Assembly (NCBI GenBank): GCA_030035585.1
Contig: CM057481.1
Location: 8,581,128-8,645,127, forward strand
Direction of reading: 5' to 3'
Source of the DNA: Dugong dugon
Lineage: Eukaryota > Chordata > Mammalia > Sirenia > Dugongidae
DNA length: 64,000 nucleotides
Each line of letters starts with the position of its first letter. Positions within the stretch are counted from its first letter, which is position 1. The notes beneath the pieces were generated by a model. It saw nothing but the letters and a program-made list of their open reading frames with translations. It did no database searches and was not told the DNA's origin. This document shows positions 11,039 through 63,529 of the stretch, in pieces. A program made the translations under genes and the position numbers.

Positions 11039-11213
11039 CCTCCATGTACTCGGAGATCCAGAGGGAGCGGGCAGACATCGGTGGCATGATGGCCCGGCCA
11101 GAGTACAGGGAGAGGAACCCTGAGCTCATCAAACCCAAGAAGCTACTGAACCCCGTGAAGGCCTCCCGGAGCCACCAGGAGCTGCACCGCGAGCTGCTCA
11201 TGAACCACAGAAG
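11039..11213 (+). CDS. FAM107A: FAM107A first coding exon
   Basis: The acceptor CCACCTCCACAG precedes 11,039, five untranslated bases (CCTCC) follow, and the ATG is at 11,044. The exon codes for residues 1-56 plus two bases of Arg57 and ends at the donor AAG|GTAGGG. The start is the conserved MYSEIQRE methionine. An in-frame MM at residues 15-16 is internal to the conserved block and is not the start. Confidence 0.96.
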
Positions 11214-13752
11214 GTAGGGACGGAGCCCCGCTGCCTGGGCCTGGCAGGCACCTCCTCAGGCCTGCTGGGGCCTGGGGAGTCACCCTCCATGGACGGCAGG
11301 CCTGACAGTTATCCTGGGGCCCCTGGAGGCTGAGGCCTGGAGGTGACCCTCGTCGTCACCCATAGACAAGGTCCAGACCCCAGTAGGCCCTTGGGAACCA
11401 GAGGGCCCCAGAAAGCCCGTTCTCCCACCCAGCCTACTTTCTGCCTGCCCGCCACATCCATTTCCTGAGCACCTACTATGTGCTGGGCTCTGTGCACAGA
11501 CCTGGGGATGAAGAAGGAATGGGGCCCAGCTTCTGCCCTCATAGTGGGGGCCGATGCTTAGCTGGGTGATATAATTAGTGCTTTGCTGAAGTATAAGTGG
11601 GTCTGTGGCCCCAGAGGAGGTACCCAAGTGGGGTCCACGGTGAAGCCTCAGCTCAGGCCGGAGGGTAGGCAGGGGTCAGGCAGGTGAGGAGGTAGGCAGA
11701 GGATGGCAGAGGGAAGCACACTCCTGGAAGAGGGCACAGCATGTGCAAATGAAGGGGACGCACAAGTGGCTCAGTGCATGGGTGTTGATTGTGAGGTGCA
11801 GGCCGGGCGGGCTGTGAAGTGTAGGCCAGGTGGACTGTGAGGTGTGGCCAAGAGAGAGGTGGGAACTCCGGAAGGCATGTGGTCTGACCAGTGCTTCAGA
11901 AAGGTCCCTCTGGCTTGAGGGGGCAGGGAGGGGGTGCAATACGGGAGGGACAGGAGTGGAGCTGGTGGCTCCTCCGGGGCAATGTCCTGGGGTGCAACGA
12001 GAGAGAAGGGCTCGAGGGGCATACGGGCGGTGGCAGGGCAGGCGCTCAGTAGCTGACAGGATGTGCGGCGGTGGAGCGGGAGGCAGTGCTTTCCCCTGAC
12101 GCCCGGCCCCGCGCAGCTTAGGGGCGCTAGCGTGAAGACAGCGGCGCCCTCGCAGCTCTCTCTGCTGGCCAGTTCCGGTATTGCGCCGGTTATGATTGTC
12201 ATCTGCACGTGACTGACCTGCCGGCAGATACCATTGGGTATCCTGTTGTTTTTCCCTTCCGCTTGGCATTTTCTGTGGTTGCCTTTTAGAGCATCTATTT
12301 TAATGTTAAACAAAAAAAATCACCACAATCAAAAACAAAAGCCTGAAGACAAACCAGGGATATTATATGCAATATAGAAACCAGACAAAAATGAATGTGT
12401 ACAAATCCCTTACGAGCTCATGAAGATGAAAAAGTTAGGCATAGGTAGTTCACAAAAGAAGAAATGCAAATGGCTGGTAAATATGGCACATGAGACTGGT
12501 AATCAAAGAAACACAAATGACAATCAAGTATTATTTCTTGCCTGCCAGATCCTCAAATACTCAAAAGGCTGGCCGGTGGCAGTGGAGAGAAATAAATGCT
12601 GGTGACAGAGTATAAATTGGATAACCTTTCTGGGGGGCAGCTGGAAATATGTGTCCAAAATCTTTTAAAGAACCTAACCCGCTAGAAGCTTATCCTAAGA
12701 AAATCATCAGAAATAACGTAAAACCTGATCTCTGCAGTCAGACAGGCCCGGGTTCAAATCCTCATTCGGCACCTTCTGTACCTCTGACTTAGACTAGTGT
12801 CTGAAGCCCTAGGAGCCTCGTTTCCCTTCTCTGTAAACAGGCAGGGCTGCCGGGAGGATTGCATGAGATAACGGTGTAGGTTGGTGTCTCTGCGGCCCTG
12901 AGATTGGGGGGAAGGAAAGGAGGTAAGGGGATCTCCTGACGGCTGCCCCCACCCCAGGGGCCTCGGCCTGGACAGCAAGCCGGAGCTGCAGCGAGTCCTG
13001 GAGCACCGCCGGCGGAACCAGCTTATCAAGAAGAAGAAGGAGGAGCTGGAGGCCAAGCGGCTGCAGTGCCCCTTTGAGCAGGAGCTGCTGAGGCGGCAGC
13101 AGAGGCTAAACCAGGTGGGTGGGTGCGGGGTACCCAGCCCCAGCCTCCTCCCAGGCAGCCGGCTGTCTCCCGTCCCAGGGAGGAACTCTGCATGTGGCCA
13201 CAGCTGGTGAAAGGGAGGGGGTTGAACAAAAAGAGCACCGGACCAGGAGTCCACCACTGCCCTGAGTCTTCATGGTGCCACTCACTTTGCTGTGTGGCTT
13301 TGGGCAAGTGGCCTCCCCTCTCTGAACCTCAGTTTCCTCATAAGCCCAGTGTACTACACATGGTTTCTGATTTCATTCTCCCAACTACCCTGAGAGCCAG
13401 CTGGCATTCCCTTTTTAGAGGTGGGGAGCCTGAGGTCCGATGAGGTGAACCACGTGAACTAGGCGGCACAGGAAGAACTTGGTCACCTACTGTCCCCCAG
13501 CCACCAGGCTGGTAGCAGAACCAGTCCTTGGCTGTTTTCCCACTGAGAGAAGAACCCTCTGTCCAAACCTTGAGGCTTTTGAGACTAGGAACCACCACCC
13601 CTCCAGTCCCACCCACTTCACACTTTTGCTTCTCTCTCCTTCAGCTGGAAAAACAACCCGAAAAGGAAGAGCAGCACACCCCTGAGTTTCTTAAAGTCCG
13701 GGAAAACCTGCGGAGAATCGCCACGCTGGCGAGTGACGAGCGAGTGCTGTAG
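11044..13752 (+). CDS. FAM107A: FAM107A (DRR1/TU3A) coding region, three exons
   Basis: The joined exons (11,044-11,213; 12,958-13,114; 13,645-13,752) give a 144-residue protein, the usual length for FAM107A, starting [20 protein letters not shown] and ending [12 protein letters not shown]. The family has an N-terminal conserved block and a basic, glutamate-rich coiled-coil centre (here [20 protein letters not shown]). FAM107A is an actin-binding, stress- and glucocorticoid-inducible protein of neurons and astrocytes, found in nucleus, cytoplasm and on stress fibres. It bundles F-actin and is low in several tumours. All splice sites are GT/AG with matching phases, and no frameshift or premature stop is present. 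The first coding exon opens with a short 5'UTR after an acceptor, so the promoter lies further upstream. Identification rests on near-identity to the human protein as I remember it. Confidence 0.97.
12725..12880 (+). repeat. MIR SINE in FAM107A intron
   Basis: CAGACAGGCCCGGGTTCAAAT followed by GAGCCTCGTTTCCCTTCTCT and a CATGAGATAACGG segment, in MIR order. It lies just upstream of the second coding exon. Confidence 0.7.
12958..13114 (+). CDS. FAM107A: FAM107A second coding exon
   Basis: Follows the acceptor GCCCCCACCCCAG. Its first base completes Arg57, then [20 protein letters not shown] leads into the lysine- and glutamate-rich helix, and the exon ends ...RRQQRLNQ at the donor CAG|GTGGGT. 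This exon holds most of the predicted coiled coil. Confidence 0.97.
13220..13490 (+). repeat. MIR SINE copies in FAM107A intron
   Basis: GGGCAAGTGGCCTCCCCTCT followed by GAACCTCAGTTTCCTCATAA, then a second MIR-like segment with GAGGTGGGGAGCCTGAGGTC. Confidence 0.65.
13645..13752 (+). CDS. FAM107A: FAM107A last coding exon
   Basis: The acceptor TCTCTCCTTCAG is followed by [20 protein letters not shown] and ends ...ASDERVL with a TAG stop at 13,750-13,752. The end matches the human C-terminus except for a few conservative changes. Confidence 0.97.
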
Positions 13753-18770: not shown

Positions 18771-19928
18771 AACAAGTATTTCACTTATTTACCCCATACA
18801 TCTCTCCCAACTAGAGCGTCAGCAACACAGGGCGAAGACTTCTGTCTGTCTTGTTTACTGCTAAATCCCTAGTGTCTAGCACAGTGCCTGCCCAGAGCAC
18901 ATGCTTAATGTTTGTTGAAGGAATGAATGTTCCGCCTTGTCCCGATGCAGTGCACCCAGCCTCCTCCCAGATTCAGCCCCTCCCATCACCATAGCAACTA
19001 GAGAAGGTACCCACATGCCTCTGCAGCTTGACCCCAACCCGAAGACGTCAATTTGGTCCAGAAGGTCTCCTCTGGCCTCCTGGACGCTCGGTGATACATC
19101 TGAGCCCTACTGGCACTTGTGCCCACAGGATCCACATGGGAGCCGCGTGGTCCTACCCTCCACCGGGACGTTCAGAGACCGACGTCCTCTCTGAAAGGTG
19201 TCTGCAACAGCTCTGACTTCAGACTCCGCCGTAAATGGGGAGCTGAGAGCAGCACTCTGATTCTGCCTGATGCCACCTTCCACGCCCACCAAACCACGAG
19301 TCCTGGTTTTGGCTTGGAGAACACCCTCTTTGACGGTAGACTCAGCACAGAATACACAGCCCAGGGAGGGAGGGCACCCTCAGGCAGCCAGGGGCCTCTC
19401 TTCCCTCGTTCTGCAGTGTGGGCTTCAGCAGAGCCCTCAGGACCCCATAGCTGTGGCAGGGCAGCCTCACCATGCTGGAGATGATGCTGACTCCAAGCCC
19501 AAGAGGGCAGGCGCTCTGTTTGATTCTGCTTGCCTACCTCCAGCCCAGTCCAGAGCCCTACATGTAGTAGGTGTTCAAAAAATCCTGAATGGATGTCAGC
19601 AATGATAACTTCATTTATGGAGAACCAACAATGTCACCAGCCAGGACAGTTAGGTGTCATTCTCTGCATCTCGCAGATGAAGAAACCAAGGCTCCGGTAA
19701 GTTAAGACACTTGCTGGATGTCACAAAGCAACACCCAAAGAGAGATGAGATTCCCATCCAGGGCCATCGGTCTGAAAAGTCTGTGTTCTTGTCCCTAAGC
19801 CAGGCTTTGCTCATAGAAATGGCTCATAGGAGGCCCCTGCACCATCCTGCCCTTCTGCCAAGGGATTTGGGGACCTACTTTGCCTTCTACTCGTCCATCT
19901 GAATTTGAAGGATGTGGCTTCCACCCGC
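18771..19928. other. Intergenic DNA, no gene recognised
   Basis: Mostly unique sequence with several chance open frames. An X-box-like half palindrome, CACCATAGCAAC, lies at about 18,988-18,999. The part at 19,600-19,720 is MIR-like (TCGCAGATGAAGAAACCAAGG). Confidence 0.35.
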
Positions 19929-31011: not shown

Positions 31012-31265
31012 TTGGGGCTTTATACCTGTGTGTTATAGATGGGGCTTTATACCCTGTGTGTTACAGACAGGGCTTTATACCCTGCGTGTTATAGACGGGG
31101 CTTATACCCTGCGTGTTATAGACGGGGCTTATACCCTGTGTGTTACAGATGGGGCTTATACCCTGTGTGTTACAGATCGGCCTTTATACCTGTGTGTTAC
31201 AGATGGGCTTTATACCCTGTGTGTTATAGACAGGGCTTTATACCCTGTGTGTTATAGACAAGGCA
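31012..31265. repeat. 24-28 bp minisatellite, about nine units
   Basis: The unit GGGCTTTATACCCTGTGTGT plus TACAGAC (variants TATAGAC, ACCTGTGTG) is repeated about nine times, with unit length varying by a few bases. It lies about 480 bp before the inverted ACOX2 exon remnant. Confidence 0.92.
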
Positions 31266-31745
31266 GGTGTTATTACTCAGGAGCTAGAGGGAGGGAAGCA
31301 AGGTGTTATGAGTTGAATTGTGAGAGGAGAAAGGGGCCGGGCCACCGTCAACGGCCCTGGCCCTGAAGCCAGGGGTGAGGCAGGACTCTGAGGGCAGACA
31401 CCTGTGGTTGAGCAGTCAGACTTTGGAGAAAAGGGTGTGGGTACCCTCAGCCTGGACAGGGTATAGGAAGGAAGGGGCACTTGGTATCCTGGTTTCCTGA
31501 TAAGTGCTGCCTTTGTTGGGGAAAATGGCTCATGGAGCTGGAGGGTTTCCTAGTGATCCCAGGTGGACCACACCTGGCCTCAGTGTCTCCCTTGCCTGTT
31601 CTCCCAGCTTCCAGGGTGAGCTATTAAACTAATCTAATTGTGGAATTTTGAGGGCAGAGAATGAGAGACTGCCAGTGAAGGTCTCTTCTCCCAAGAAAAG
31701 CATTATGGGCAGAAAGCAGGTGCTGTACTCCCCAGCTCCTCTTAC

Positions 31746-31809
31746 CGATTTTCCTCCGGAGCGCTGTGTTCTGGGCACCGCTATTGAGGATGTGGGTGAG
31801 CTGTTCCAC
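31746..31809 (-). pseudogene. ACOX2: ACOX2 exon 2 remnant, inverted
   Basis: The minus strand reads VEQLTHILNSGAQNTALRRK followed by Ile and one base, then the donor GTAAG at 31,741-31,745. Human ACOX2 residues 33-53 read VERLTNILDGGAQNTALRRK followed by Val, and the exon ends after the first base of a Glu codon, which is the phase seen here. Similarity stops abruptly at 31,809/31,810, inside the exon. No trace of the first 32 residues follows. The strand is opposite to every other ACOX2 exon in the window. Confidence 0.85.
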
Positions 31810-31826
31810 ACCTGACCAAGGTGAGT
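31810..31826 (+). other. ACOX2: Orphan splice donor beside the inversion junction
   Basis: ACCTGACCAAG|GTGAGT lies on the plus strand immediately after the inverted exon 2 piece. The last bases resemble the end of human exon 4 (codons for T-Y-L-Q), so this could be the surviving 3' tip of exon 4 with its donor. That would make a 124-bp intron before exon 5. The similarity is too short to prove this. Confidence 0.3.
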
Positions 31827-31889
31827 CAGGCGAGCTGGCCAGTGGGACGCTTTCAGGTACTCACTCCTGGGACAGCCCCACCAAAGAGG

Positions 31890-31927
31890 GACTCCTCTCC
31901 TTGGTTCCGACTCCTCTCCTTGGTTCC
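31890..31927 (+). repeat. 19-bp direct duplication before ACOX2 exon 5
   Basis: GACTCCTCTCCTTGGTTCC occurs twice with no spacer (31,890-31,908 and 31,909-31,927), in the pyrimidine tract upstream of the exon 5 acceptor. Confidence 0.95.
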
Positions 31928-31944
31928 AAGGGACGTATCTTCAG

Positions 31945-32031
31945 GGCTTGGAGACTGAAGCCACCTATGACGCAGCCACCCAGGAGTTTGTGATGCACAG
32001 CCCCACGCTGACTGCCACCAAGTGGTGGCCT
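31945..32031 (+). CDS. ACOX2: ACOX2 exon 5
   Basis: The acceptor ACGTATCTTCAG precedes [20 protein letters not shown] and then [11 protein letters not shown] plus one base, ending at the donor C|GTAAGTAT. It corresponds to human residues 164 onward and differs by a single Ile-to-Met change over this exon. It belongs to the acyl-CoA oxidase middle (beta) domain. Confidence 0.95.
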
Positions 32032-33161
32032 GGGGACCGTAAGTATCTGTTCGCCTCTCACACCTACCTCTCTCCAAGGAGAACAAAGGTGGAAGGCAGA
32101 ATAGCACTGGCTTTTATGTCCAACAGAACTCAGATGGATTTCCTGCTTTGGGCTTGTGGCCTTTGGGCAAAACAACACATCCCCCAGAGCCTCAGGGTCT
32201 TACTCTGTAAAATGGATGCAATAGTAAACATTTCACCAGTGGGAGGCTAGGAAGTTCTCAAGGGAACTTTGAAGCGGATGAGGAAATCGACCCAACCTTT
32301 GGGGAACGAAGGCCAAGTCCTCTTTCACACACACACTGCCCTGACACAGAAACGTGTGTGGGTGTACATGCAGACACAGCCTAGTCCCAGGGGCTCCCCA
32401 CAAGTCCAACGCCTCTCATCTCCTGAGTGAAAGATTAAGCTTGCCACCAGCTGGAGCACAGGGCCTTGCGATTAAACAGTTACTAAGAAAAACATCCCTC
32501 CCCACCCCTGCTCCAGCGACCCAGAAAGGCTCAAGGCCCCCCCCTCCAGCACCAGTCCTGGTGGGACATCTTGGCCACAAAGGCCATCCAGTGCTGCGCC
32601 TTCTCCTTAGGCCACCAGGTGGCAACCGTGCCACGCTTCCCTAAGGCTCCGAGCCCAGCCCTATCTGTCAAGCCCCAAAGAGGGGTCCCACCAGGCCCCT
32701 TTCCTCTGATTTATGAATTCACCCCTGAGGGCACGTCAGGGGCACTTGGGGACCCTGTCAGTGAACGCCTTGTCTGTAAAATAAAAAGACGAATGTGAGG
32801 AGTTCAAACCAAAGCAAAAGGAGAGAGACGAGTGAGACGAGAGAGACGAGAGACCTGAGAGAACATTGAGAAAATATCAGAGACTGCTGTCCAAACCGCA
32901 AAGAAACCAGCCTGGGACATCAGGCAGACCAGAGTTCAAATCCCAGCTCTGCCCCCGCCAGGCCAGTGACCCTGAGAACGTCACTCCACTCCTCGAGCCT
33001 CAGTTTCTCATCTGGAAAACGGGACTCATGACAGCCCTTCAAGAGCTGGAGATAATACATGGAAAGCGCCAGAACAGGGCCTGGCACCGCCTGGGTTTTG
33101 ATAAATGGTAATATCTATATTCATTATTAGCAGGCTGATGGTCAGAATGATTCCTTAACAG

Positions 33162-34076: not shown

Positions 34077-34196
34077 TGGGACTGTCAGCCACCCACGCCC
34101 TGGTCCTGGCCCAGCTGATCTGCTCAGGAGCCCGGCGGGGCGTGCACGCCTTCATTGTGCCCATCCGGAGCCTCCAGGACCACACCCCACTGCCAG
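34077..34196 (+). CDS. ACOX2: ACOX2 exon 6
   Basis: The acceptor CTTGCCCTCAG is followed by two bases that complete Leu, then GLSATHALVLAQLICSGARR and GVHAFIVPIRSLQDHTPLPG, ending at CCAG|GTAAGC. It is near-identical to human, with Arg-to-Leu at the second residue of the GRSATHAL block. No lesion. Confidence 0.96.
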
Positions 34197-34526: not shown

Positions 34527-34642
34527 GAGTCACCGTTGGAGACATTGGGCCCAAGATGGACTTTGAACATGTAGACAATGGCTTCTTGCGGCTGGACCAT
34601 GTGTGGGTCCCCCGGGAGAACATGCTGAGTCGCTTTGCACAG
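34527..34642 (+). CDS. ACOX2: ACOX2 exon 7
   Basis: The acceptor CTCCTTCTAG is followed by GVTVGDIGPKMDFEHVDNGF and LRLDHVWVPRENMLSRFAQ, ending at CAG|GTTGGG. The donor has a G at +4 and lacks the usual A at +3, so it is weak. The reading frame is open and in phase with exons 6 and 8. Confidence 0.95.
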
Positions 34643-35280: not shown

Positions 35281-35453
35281 GTCTTGCCAGATGGCACCTA
35301 TGTCACGCTCGGAACCGCGCAGAGCAACTACCTTTCCATGGTGGTGATACGGGTGGAAATGCTGTTGAATACGGTCTTACCCAACCTGCAGAAGGCTTGT
35401 GTCATTGCCATGCGCTACTCGGTCATACGCCGCCAGTCCCGGCTCCAGCCCAG
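35281..35453 (+). CDS. ACOX2: ACOX2 exon 8 with GC donor
   Basis: The acceptor TTGGTCCACACAG is followed by VLPDGTYVTLGTAQSNYLSM, VVIRVEMLLNTVLPNLQKAC and VIAMRYSVIRRQSRLQP plus two bases. The donor is CAG|GCAAGG, a GC donor in good context. It may be an accepted GC-AG intron or a GT-to-GC change. The frame is intact and joins exon 9 to give the expected Ser. Confidence 0.93.
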
Positions 35454-35689
35454 GCAAGGGGCCCCCAGAGGCTGACCATAGCAGACACAGCTACTTCTCA
35501 GTCCCATGGTGCCCGCCCCCTGACACCATCCCTCTGTCAGAGCCAGGCTGCAGGGGCAGACACTACCCACCACACACACACATCTGCCCAGCTGGCCATG
35601 CCTGCGAGGTCTCCATCCGACCCCTCTCTGGCCCTGGCTGACCGCCTGGCCCCAGTGGGTCTGCCAGCTGCCCTGTCAGGCTCTGTGTG

Positions 35690-36900: not shown

Positions 36901-37063
36901 TGACCCAGAGGCAAGAGTCCTGAACTACCAGACGCAGCAGCAGAAACTCTTCCCTCAGCTGGCCATGGCCTACGCTTTCCATTTCCAGGCCGTCAGCCTC
37001 TTGGAATTGTTCCAGCGCTCCTATCGTGCCATTCTGGACAGAGATTTCAGCCTCCTGCCTGAG
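36901..37063 (+). CDS. ACOX2: ACOX2 exon 9
   Basis: The acceptor TCTTCCCCTCAG is followed by one base completing Ser, then DPEARVLNYQTQQQKLFPQL, AMAYAFHFQAVSLLELFQRS and YRAILDRDFSLLPE, ending at GAG|GTAACT. It starts the C-terminal helical domain, with the DYQTQQ-type motif kept as NYQTQQ. Confidence 0.95.
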
Positions 37064-38427: not shown

Positions 38428-38618
38428 CTCCACGTGCTGTGTGCAGGTCTGAAGGCCCTGATGTCAGACTCCTGCACCCAGGGGGCTGAGCTGTGCCGCA
38501 GGGCCTGTGGTGGCCACAGCTTCTCCAAGCTCAGCGGCCTGCCATCGCTGGTCACCAGGGTGACGGCCTCCTGTACCTACGAGGGCGAGAATACTGTGCT
38601 CTACCTTCAGGTGGCCAG
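38428..38618 (+). CDS. ACOX2: ACOX2 exon 10, catalytic-glutamate exon
   Basis: The acceptor TGTTCCCACAG is followed by LHVLCAGLKALMSDSCTQGA, ELCRRACGGHSFSKLSGLPS, LVTRVTASCTYEGENTVLYL and QVA, ending at CCAG|GTGAGG. The CTYEGENTV segment, which carries the acyl-CoA oxidase catalytic base (Glu), is kept. The adjacent ACGGHGYS motif reads ACGGHSFS, with two changes at positions that are normally conserved. The frame is open throughout. Confidence 0.95.
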
Positions 38619-40302: not shown

Positions 40303-40482
40303 GTTTCTGGTGAATAACTGCCTGCAGGCTCAGAAGCCCCCAGGCTCCACATCACAGAGGTCTCTGCCTCAGTCTGTCACATATCTCGCTGCACCTGTCC
40401 TGGCCAGGTGCCCAACCCAGCAGGCAGCCAACTTCCTCTGCCCTGAGGTCTACACCACAGCCTGGGCACACATGGCAGCCAG
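40303..40482 (+). CDS. ACOX2: ACOX2 exon 11
   Basis: The acceptor CCTCCCCCAG is followed by one base completing Arg, then FLVNNCLQAQKPPGSTSQRS, LPQSVTYLAAPVLARCPTQQ and AANFLCPEVYTTAWAHMAA, ending at CCAG|GTGAGC. It is less conserved than its neighbours, as this surface loop region also is between other mammals. Confidence 0.95.
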
Positions 40483-42558: not shown

Positions 42559-42664
42559 GCTCATAAGGGACTCGGTGCATCATTTACAGACCCTGACGCA
42601 ATCCGGGGCCAACCGGCAGGAGGCGTGGAGCCAGACCACTGTCCTACACGTCCAGGCTGCTAAG
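42559..42664 (+). CDS. ACOX2: ACOX2 exon 12
   Basis: The acceptor TTGGCCTTGAG is unusual in having G at -3 (GAG instead of CAG or TAG). One base completes Arg, then LIRDSVHHLQTLTQSGANRQ and EAWSQTTVLHVQAAK, ending at AAG|GTGAGC. The frame is intact and close to human. Confidence 0.94.
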
Positions 42665-47501: not shown

Positions 47502-47719
47502 GCACACTGCTACTACATCACTGTGAAGAGTTTTACACACGCTCTGGAGGAACTGGAAAACGAGCCGGCGATCCAGCAGGCACTCAAACGGCTCTGTGAC
47601 CTCTACGCCTTACACGGCATCCTGACCAACGCGGGCGACTTTCTCCACGACGGCTTCCTTTCTGGGGCCCAAGCAGACATGGCGAGGACAGCCTACCTGG
47701 ACCCCCTCCCCCTGATCCG
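47502..47719 (+). CDS. ACOX2: ACOX2 exon 13
   Basis: The acceptor TGTGTCTGTGTAG is followed by AHCYYITVKSFTHALEELEN, EPAIQQALKRLCDLYALHGI, LTNAGDFLHDGFLSGAQADM and ARTAYLDPLPLI plus two bases of Arg, ending at CCG|GTGAGT. It is the longest ACOX2 exon here and is free of lesions. It codes for part of the C-terminal dimerisation helices. Confidence 0.96.
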
Positions 47720-54512: not shown

Positions 54513-54645
54513 GAAGGACGCCATCTTGATAACTGATGCTTTTGACTTCACTGATCAGTGTTTAAACTCAGCACTTGGCTGTTATGATGGAAATGTCCAT
54601 GAACGTCTGTTCGAGTGGGCTCAGAGGTCGCCACGCAATACTCAG
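54513..54645 (+). CDS. ACOX2: ACOX2 exon 14
   Basis: The acceptor TTATTTTCTCAG is followed by one base completing Arg, then KDAILITDAFDFTDQCLNSA, LGCYDGNVHERLFEWAQRSP and RNTQ, ending at CAG|GTAGTT. It is very close to human (KDAILLTDAFDFTDQCLNSA) and free of lesions. The +4 to +6 positions of the donor are weak. Confidence 0.95.
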
Positions 54646-58010: not shown

Positions 58011-58142
58011 GGGAACCCGGCCTATGAGAAATACATAAAACACTGTTACAAAGTTGGAGAGCCAAGCTTGAGAAATAACCAGCAGTACTCACGAAGCAGA
58101 CAGCACCACTATGTGATCATCGTACTATGGCAAGATACATAA
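58011..58142 (+). pseudogene. ACOX2: ACOX2 last exon (15), frameshifted; peroxisome signal lost
   Basis: The acceptor CTTCTACAAACAG is followed by GNPAYEKYIKHCYKVGEPSL and then about 23 unrelated residues to a TAA at 58,140-58,142. Human reads ENPAYEEYIRPLLQSWRSKL and stops. In the other frame, from 58,043, this exon reads LLQSWRAKLEK and a stop at 58,076-58,078. The ancestral ending is thus still visible one base out of frame, and a single base was lost near 58,039-58,042. Even in that frame the tripeptide is AKL and is not terminal, because the stop after it is also displaced. The annotated end is the in-frame stop only. I found no convincing polyadenylation signal. Confidence 0.88.
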
Positions 58143-62703: not shown

Positions 62704-63390
62704 TCAGTCATCCGTCTTCCGGGCCAGTCGACAGAAAGTCCAGTTGTGCTCCACTGTGTTCTCATTGGCCCGCTCACTCATGTGATGCACTCGGGTGTTG
62801 CGAATCGTGAACCCTTGCTTTGTGATGTATTCCATCAGATGCACCCGGAGAGAAACTTCCTGGTGATAATCACAGGGTCCAAAAGTAAAGGAAACCTGGC
62901 AGTCTCTGGTGTCCATCATGTGCTTGTTCCACTTGGTAAAATAGTTTGAGATGCCTTCTAGTAAGGAGTGGACCTTTGTGGTGATGGTTAACTGGGTTAT
63001 GATGACAGCCACGGGATTGGAGTACTTTGAAAGCTTCCGGGTACTGGATAACTCCACAACTTCTTCAAAAGTATCCATAGGATACAAAGGCTTAGGGTCA
63101 TTGAGACACTGAATCAAGGGCTCAATCTGATAAAAATCTGCTTCTTTCCGAAGTAGATCAAATTCCTTAAAATCCAGGGGTAAGGTCAACTCTGAAGTTC
63201 TTAAGAAGTTGAGGACATATCGGAAAAGAGGTCCATCTCGATCAATGAAGTAATTGCCTTGAGGGTCTCGAGCTGTGGGGAAGTCCCCCCCAAACATAGC
63301 TCCAAGCATGGAATCTGGATAACGAGTCAATGTGGTGAGAGACGTTGTATACAAGTGTCCACCTACATTTAACGTGACTGGGTCAGTCAT
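62704..63390 (-). CDS. KCTD6: KCTD6, main coding exon (BTB/POZ-domain CUL3 adaptor)
   Basis: Codes for 228 residues from MTDPVTLNVGGHLYTTSLTT to CRLARKTDD with a TGA stop at 62,704. The human protein has 237 residues, and its first nine (MDNGDWGYM) come from an upstream exon. Here the ATG follows directly on the acceptor TTTTTTAAAAAATTTCAG, so this exon is the 3' coding exon and the preceding one lies beyond the window. The BTB/T1 fold covers about residues 3-95 (VGGHLYTT, FIDRDGPLFRYVLNFLR, EADFYQIEPLIQCL). KCTD6 binds CUL3 as a pentameric substrate adaptor. Reported targets are small ankyrin-1 in muscle and HDAC1, which dampens Hedgehog signalling. Sequence is almost unchanged from human, in strong contrast to ACOX2 next door. 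Confidence 0.97.
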   Translation of the reverse strand: MTDPVTLNVGGHLYTTSLTTLTRYPDSMLGAMFGGDFPTARDPQGNYFIDRDGPLFRYVLNFLRTSELTLPLDFKEFDLLRKEADFYQIEPLIQCLNDPKPLYPMDTFEEVVELSSTRKLSKYSNPVAVIITQLTITTKVHSLLEGISNYFTKWNKHMMDTRDCQVSFTFGPCDYHQEVSLRVHLMEYITKQGFTIRNTRVHHMSERANENTVEHNWTFCRLARKTDD

Positions 63391-63529
63391 CTGAAATTTT
63401 TTAAAAAATGATCAGTCATCTGAAAATATTTTGTAAATCCTAACTTTAGACAAATTAAGAAAATTAATAGTAATGAGAAAAATAAAAGATTCTTCCAGGT
63501 TATAATGTATTTAGCAATCCTATAATCCT

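Follow-up and report, generated by a model that had tools for sequence, protein, structure and literature searches.

Dugong ACOX2 as a probable unitary pseudogene with an inverted exon 2 remnant and a frameshifted exon 15

The ACOX2 gene of the dugong (Dugong dugon) is most probably a unitary pseudogene, disabled by a rearrangement in the dugong lineage after its split from the manatees and left to decay once bile synthesis had stopped before the step at which ACOX2 acts. In the window, i.e. the whole stretch of DNA that was analysed (64,000 nucleotides, C24:8581128-8645127 in the assembly), the 5′ coding part of the gene was not found apart from a short inverted remnant of exon 2. This supports the original prediction, made for the same 64-kb locus, that ACOX2 is broken and that an inversion with deletion explains the damage. 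A frameshift in exon 15 is a second lesion, which that prediction had not seen.

Dugong ACOX2 lies at the ancestral locus, flanked on the left by the coding exons of FAM107A (11044–13749, plus strand, 79-96% identity per exon) and on the right by KCTD6 (residues 8-237 at 62707–63396, minus strand, 99.1% identity over 230 aa), both located by tblastn with human protein queries. The human gene order is FAM107A-ACOX2-KCTD6. A processed or moved copy of ACOX2 was ruled out by the presence of introns and of the flanking genes. Exons 5–15, numbered as in the original prediction, are on the plus strand throughout. Exon 5 was found at 31931–32038 (81.6 bits, 36/36 residues identical to manatee), exon 6 at 34077–34196, exon 7 at 34527–34642 (donor GTTGGG), exon 8 at 35281–35453, exon 9 at 36901–37063, exon 10 at 38428–38618, exon 11 at 40303–40482, exon 12 at 42559–42664, exon 13 at 47502–47719 and exon 14 at 54513–54645. 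Residues from 164 on had been expected on the plus strand; the strand is as expected, and the start is not, exon 5 beginning at residue 159 in elephant numbering. The acceptors are AG and the donors comprise nine GT and one GC, the latter at 35454–35455 behind exon 8 (CCAG/GCAAGG). With these splice sites set, exons 5–14 form a single open frame with 0 stops and 0 frameshifts in 503 codons, and the joined exons 5–15 give 513 residues up to the frameshift in exon 15. The joined exons match the NCBI entry 'LOW QUALITY PROTEIN: peroxisomal acyl-coenzyme A oxidase 2, partial [Dugong dugon]' with a listed identity of 100% (512 residues without a difference), a model which likewise begins at exon 5 and which may derive from the same assembly as the window. 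Among the matches listed in the protein search, identity was 92% to Trichechus inunguis and 87% to Loxodonta africana. An afrotherian SINE consensus has 35 matches in the window (E up to 1e-5). The window comes from dugong, as opposed to elephant, hyrax or manatee.

The only recognizable piece of the N-terminal part is a 63-bp inverted 3′ remnant of exon 2 on the minus strand (31747–31809, residues 33-53), which scored 40.4 bits against manatee. Read from 31809 to 31747, this scrap encodes VEQLTHILNSGAQNTALRRKI, and direct reading of the minus strand at 31740–31746 shows it to be followed by the last base of exon 2, a phase-1 G (31746), and by a splice donor, GTAAGA (31745–31740). Nineteen of 20 residues are identical to manatee residues 34-53 (E 4.5e-7), and the human and elephant queries found the scrap at the same place. 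First-order Markov sequences generated from the window with the same dinucleotide make-up (n=40 and n=100) served as a random control; with the manatee query, 40.4 bits was reached in 0/140 of them, the maximum being 26.2 bits, and a chance match is thereby ruled out. The prediction of a sole N-terminal piece on the minus strand, with residues 33-53 and a correct donor, is thus confirmed. The distance from the scrap to the plus-strand exon 5, which had been given as 135 bp, is 121 bp. The break that truncates the scrap falls within exon 2, close to codon 32/33.

For residues 1-32 and 54-158, no match above chance was obtained on either strand of the 64-kb window with N-terminal queries from manatee, elephant, golden mole and aardvark, a protein search that covers coding exons. 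Likewise, the YAQTELGH segment was not found in the window with these N-terminal protein queries. The same search returned the 36-residue exon 5 at 81.6 bits as a positive control, and since everything else apart from the scrap remained at or below 25.8 bits, the presence of diverged exons 3-4 was ruled out. The next-best N-terminal match, of manatee residues 2-29 to the plus strand at 19112–19207 (25.8 bits, E 0.034), lies at the position expected for the 5′ part of exon 2 after an inversion. It has a four-residue gap and 41% identity, far less alike than the scrap at 95%, and its score was reached by 4/100 random sequences; it was consequently not credited as the left part of exon 2 and is treated as chance. 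Alignment of the N-terminal residues to the window hence gave nothing above chance besides the scrap, and the expectation that residues 1-32 and the N-terminal remainder are absent from both strands was borne out for 1-32 and 54-158.

Because the scrap and exons 5–15 are on opposite strands, an inversion combined with a deletion would be the simplest geometry for the 5′ end of ACOX2. One breakpoint would fall inside exon 2 and the other just before exon 5, in intron 4; the 3′ end of exon 2 would have been turned round beside exon 5, the distal portion of the inverted DNA deleted, and the sequence coding for residues 1-32 and 54-158 lost with the rearrangement. The breakpoint next to exon 5 would lie in the junction stretch from the scrap to exon 5 (31810–31930), which includes the exon 5 acceptor. 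A perfect 19-bp tandem duplication (31890–31927) touches this acceptor; its sequence recurs, each time with three mismatches, at three other places. A minisatellite of nine copies of a 27-bp unit (31014–31259) lies some 490 bp away from the scrap. The duplication and the minisatellite may each be a scar of the rearrangement or a bystander. Comparison of the junction with itself gave short matches only (best E 0.035), and comparison with phage sequences gave no match. A scan for bacterial promoters and terminators, a scan unsuited to mammalian DNA, found none.

The second lesion is located in exon 15 (58011–58142, plus strand, as read with splice sites set). The frame breaks after NPAYEKYIK; the terminal QSWRAKL is still encoded, in a different frame, and translation would continue to a stop at 58140–58142. 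The NCBI dugong model departs from the genomic frame at the same exon 15 codon and, even as corrected, ends in AKLEK and not AKL, there being no stop directly after AKL. As judged from the encoded C-terminus, the frameshift also removes the peroxisomal targeting signal (SKL or AKL) from dugong ACOX2.

The domain content of the dugong model reflects the 5′ loss. The C-terminal domains PF22924 (E 2.8e-55) and PF01756 (E 3.3e-58) are present, and the N-terminal domain PF14749, present in elephant and manatee, is missing, as is the middle domain PF02770. The PF02770 call is weak in ACOX2, because whole elephant ACOX2, in which all four domains are above cut-off, passes with 35.3 bits vs a cut-off of 33.3 and manatee ACOX2, at 24.2 bits, falls below. 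In an alignment counted by hand, YAQTELGH corresponds to residues 136-143 of the rat acyl-CoA oxidase 1is2, a stretch that includes Thr139, an FAD contact. The CTYEGEN motif, kept in dugong exon 10, aligns with rat Glu421, the catalytic residue. What remains in dugong can yield neither the N-terminal domain nor the YAQTELGH segment of the FAD pocket. In the elephant record P0003, a Thr to Met change is seen four residues past the position aligned with this Glu; none of the other sequences compared varies there.

Whole-length ACOX2 proteins (679-681 aa) were found for elephant (P0003), aardvark, golden mole, two sengis and tenrec. The African elephant record P0003 is complete, with 681 aa and an AKL end. 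It is on this record that the description of the elephant gene as whole depends, because P0115 (679 aa, an older UniProt model) does not resemble ACOX2 in a region around residues 453-546, and the third elephant record, P0144, has 613 aa. The Amazonian manatee record is flagged low quality and is interrupted by small gaps close to residues 68 and 473; the 'LOW QUALITY' label together with these gaps suggests frameshifts in manatee ACOX2. It retains the residues that are missing in dugong as well as the AKL end, and the dugong lesions are therefore not shared with it. Most likely, judging from these records, they arose after the split from the manatees, for which the dugong genome paper gives 31.2 Mya (PMC11219930). 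No named hyrax or West Indian manatee ACOX2 was among the matches listed (best 120, two protein searches).

Constraint on the remaining coding sequence was assessed by counting unique states, i.e. residues read from the genomic frame and absent from 33 other mammals, in a set using 36 of the best 120 proteins, with one-sided Fisher tests. In dugong, 7/16 unique states fall on otherwise invariant sites vs 59/400 pooled over the 33 (p 0.007), in a test that takes species as independent and in which single background rows reach 3/8 (Macaca). The corresponding values are 7/19 for Amazonian manatee (p 0.02) and 4/11 for elephant (p 0.07), the elephant excess being suggestive and not significant; a first count with tail columns included had given 8/17 for dugong and 8/20 for manatee. 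One invariant-site change (F>L) is common to dugong and manatee. With species taken as independent, constraint on dugong ACOX2 is thus relaxed. Across 511 sites there are 17 dugong-only vs 19 manatee-only changes, with 3 ambiguous, which is no burst of change in dugong. In combination with the 503 open codons, this points either to a comparatively recent loss or to long-lasting constraint. A rough neutral estimate with assumed rates (2-4% divergence, 0.08 frame-shifting indels per substitution) gives 1.0-2.0 stops and 2.4-4.8 frameshifts expected in exons 5–14 had they been neutral since the manatee split, where none is seen; exon 15 has one frameshift. The estimate hints at a later loss, and dates nothing.

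Two other readings of the dugong locus were weighed. In the first, the junction is an artefact of assembly, or intact copies of the missing exons exist at another genomic site, and it is true that one assembly only stands behind the junction. However, the window contains no N anywhere, the NCBI model is likewise partial from exon 5, and the separate exon 15 lesion and the raised change at invariant sites agree with loss. Another copy was sought among proteins, where a dugong piece would be expected near 90% identity to manatee: manatee residues 1-162 gave 23 matches, 22 of them without a name and none above 79% identity, and elephant residues 1-163 gave, in the best 120 of 252 matches, only elephant (P0144, P0003, P0115) and Amazonian manatee above 81% identity to elephant. 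Searching the genome (3,158,355,915 bases, 196 contigs) with PF02770 returned nine places, eight over the cut-off and none in the window; given the score of this domain even in whole elephant ACOX2, individual ACOX2 exons would be hard to detect in this way, and the nine places may include one. We regard an assembly error or an intact copy elsewhere as unlikely. A shorter ACOX2 protein, made from another start and still acting, would fit with the open frame of exons 5–14 and their AG acceptors and GT donors, with the single GC. Against it, the sequence from the upstream stop at 31822 to exon 5 offers no in-frame ATG, the FAD-pocket segment and peroxisomal tag are missing, and changes are enriched on invariant sites; we find it scarcely credible.

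The original prediction further held the dugong lesion to be part of the cause of the C27 bile alcohols of elephants, hyraxes and manatees. ACOX2 does act in peroxisomal side-chain oxidation (PMC12374088), and C27 bile alcohols are described as the primary bile salts of all five paenungulate species surveyed (PMC2886068). Moreover, loss of ACOX2 has been reported in manatees, and the passage in PMC7671337 (citing Sharma and Hiller 2018) states it for manatees only; PMC10294912, citing the same work, ties the loss of CYP8B1, SLC27A5 and ACOX2 to the bile of elephant and manatee together. Yet the elephant ACOX2 record P0003 is whole, the bile survey, which suggested CYP27A1 for the paenungulate bile type, found that elephant has a putative branched-chain acyl-CoA oxidase orthologue (PMC2886068), and the Amazonian manatee record keeps both the residues missing in dugong and the AKL end. 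The causal reading is also opposed by the white rhinoceros, grouped with species making only C27 bile alcohols (PMC6934887) and having an ACOX2 record of 680 aa, and by human ACOX2 deficiency, which the relevant part of PMC12374088 describes by raised C27 bile acids, bile alcohols not being mentioned there. A causal role of the dugong lesion is thus very unlikely. Since the elephant record is whole despite the bile alcohols, ACOX2 loss is more likely a late consequence than a cause, and the paenungulate block would lie earlier in the pathway than ACOX2.

Our preferred explanation, a unitary pseudogene formed in the dugong lineage, can be put as follows. Bile synthesis would have halted at alcohols, leaving ACOX2 with no bile substrate and open to separate decay in two sirenian lines. 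It seems rather probable that ACOX2 was lost separately in dugong and manatee, each time through other lesions, once a common ancestor no longer supplied the enzyme with bile intermediates, with decay trailing the bile alcohols, and that the elephant gene may drift likewise. For the dugong we infer a single inversion with deletion, no working copy of the missing exons elsewhere, and decay following from the earlier stop in bile synthesis.

The structural loss in dugong adds to the manatee loss described before. From the comparison, bile alcohols would seem to have come first and the death of ACOX2 later and separately. The question of the paenungulate bile type consequently shifts to earlier steps (CYP27A1, SLC27A5). 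Dugong bile is predicted to consist of C27 bile alcohols; the dugong is not mentioned in the bile survey as far as its text was available (PMC2886068). No literature linking ACOX2 and dugong was found, and the main text of the dugong genome paper contains neither 'acox' nor 'bile' (PMC11219930); its supplements could hold a listing.

Among known systems, human ACOX2 deficiency involves loss of the same enzyme and is described by raised C27 bile acids with liver or neurological disease (PMC12374088). In mammals with bile alcohols the pathway would halt at an earlier step. The loss of BAAT and BAATP1 in manatee (PMC6934887) is similar in that bile-acid enzymes are likewise lost in a lineage without bile acids, but it affects the conjugation step, whereas dugong ACOX2 belongs to side-chain oxidation. 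The ACOX2 loss reported for manatees (PMC7671337) concerns the same gene in the same order, Sirenia, and is the same kind of loss. Compared with the Amazonian manatee record, where the N-terminus and AKL are kept and small gaps are seen, the dugong gene is distinguished by a structural loss of its 5′ end and a frameshift in exon 15.
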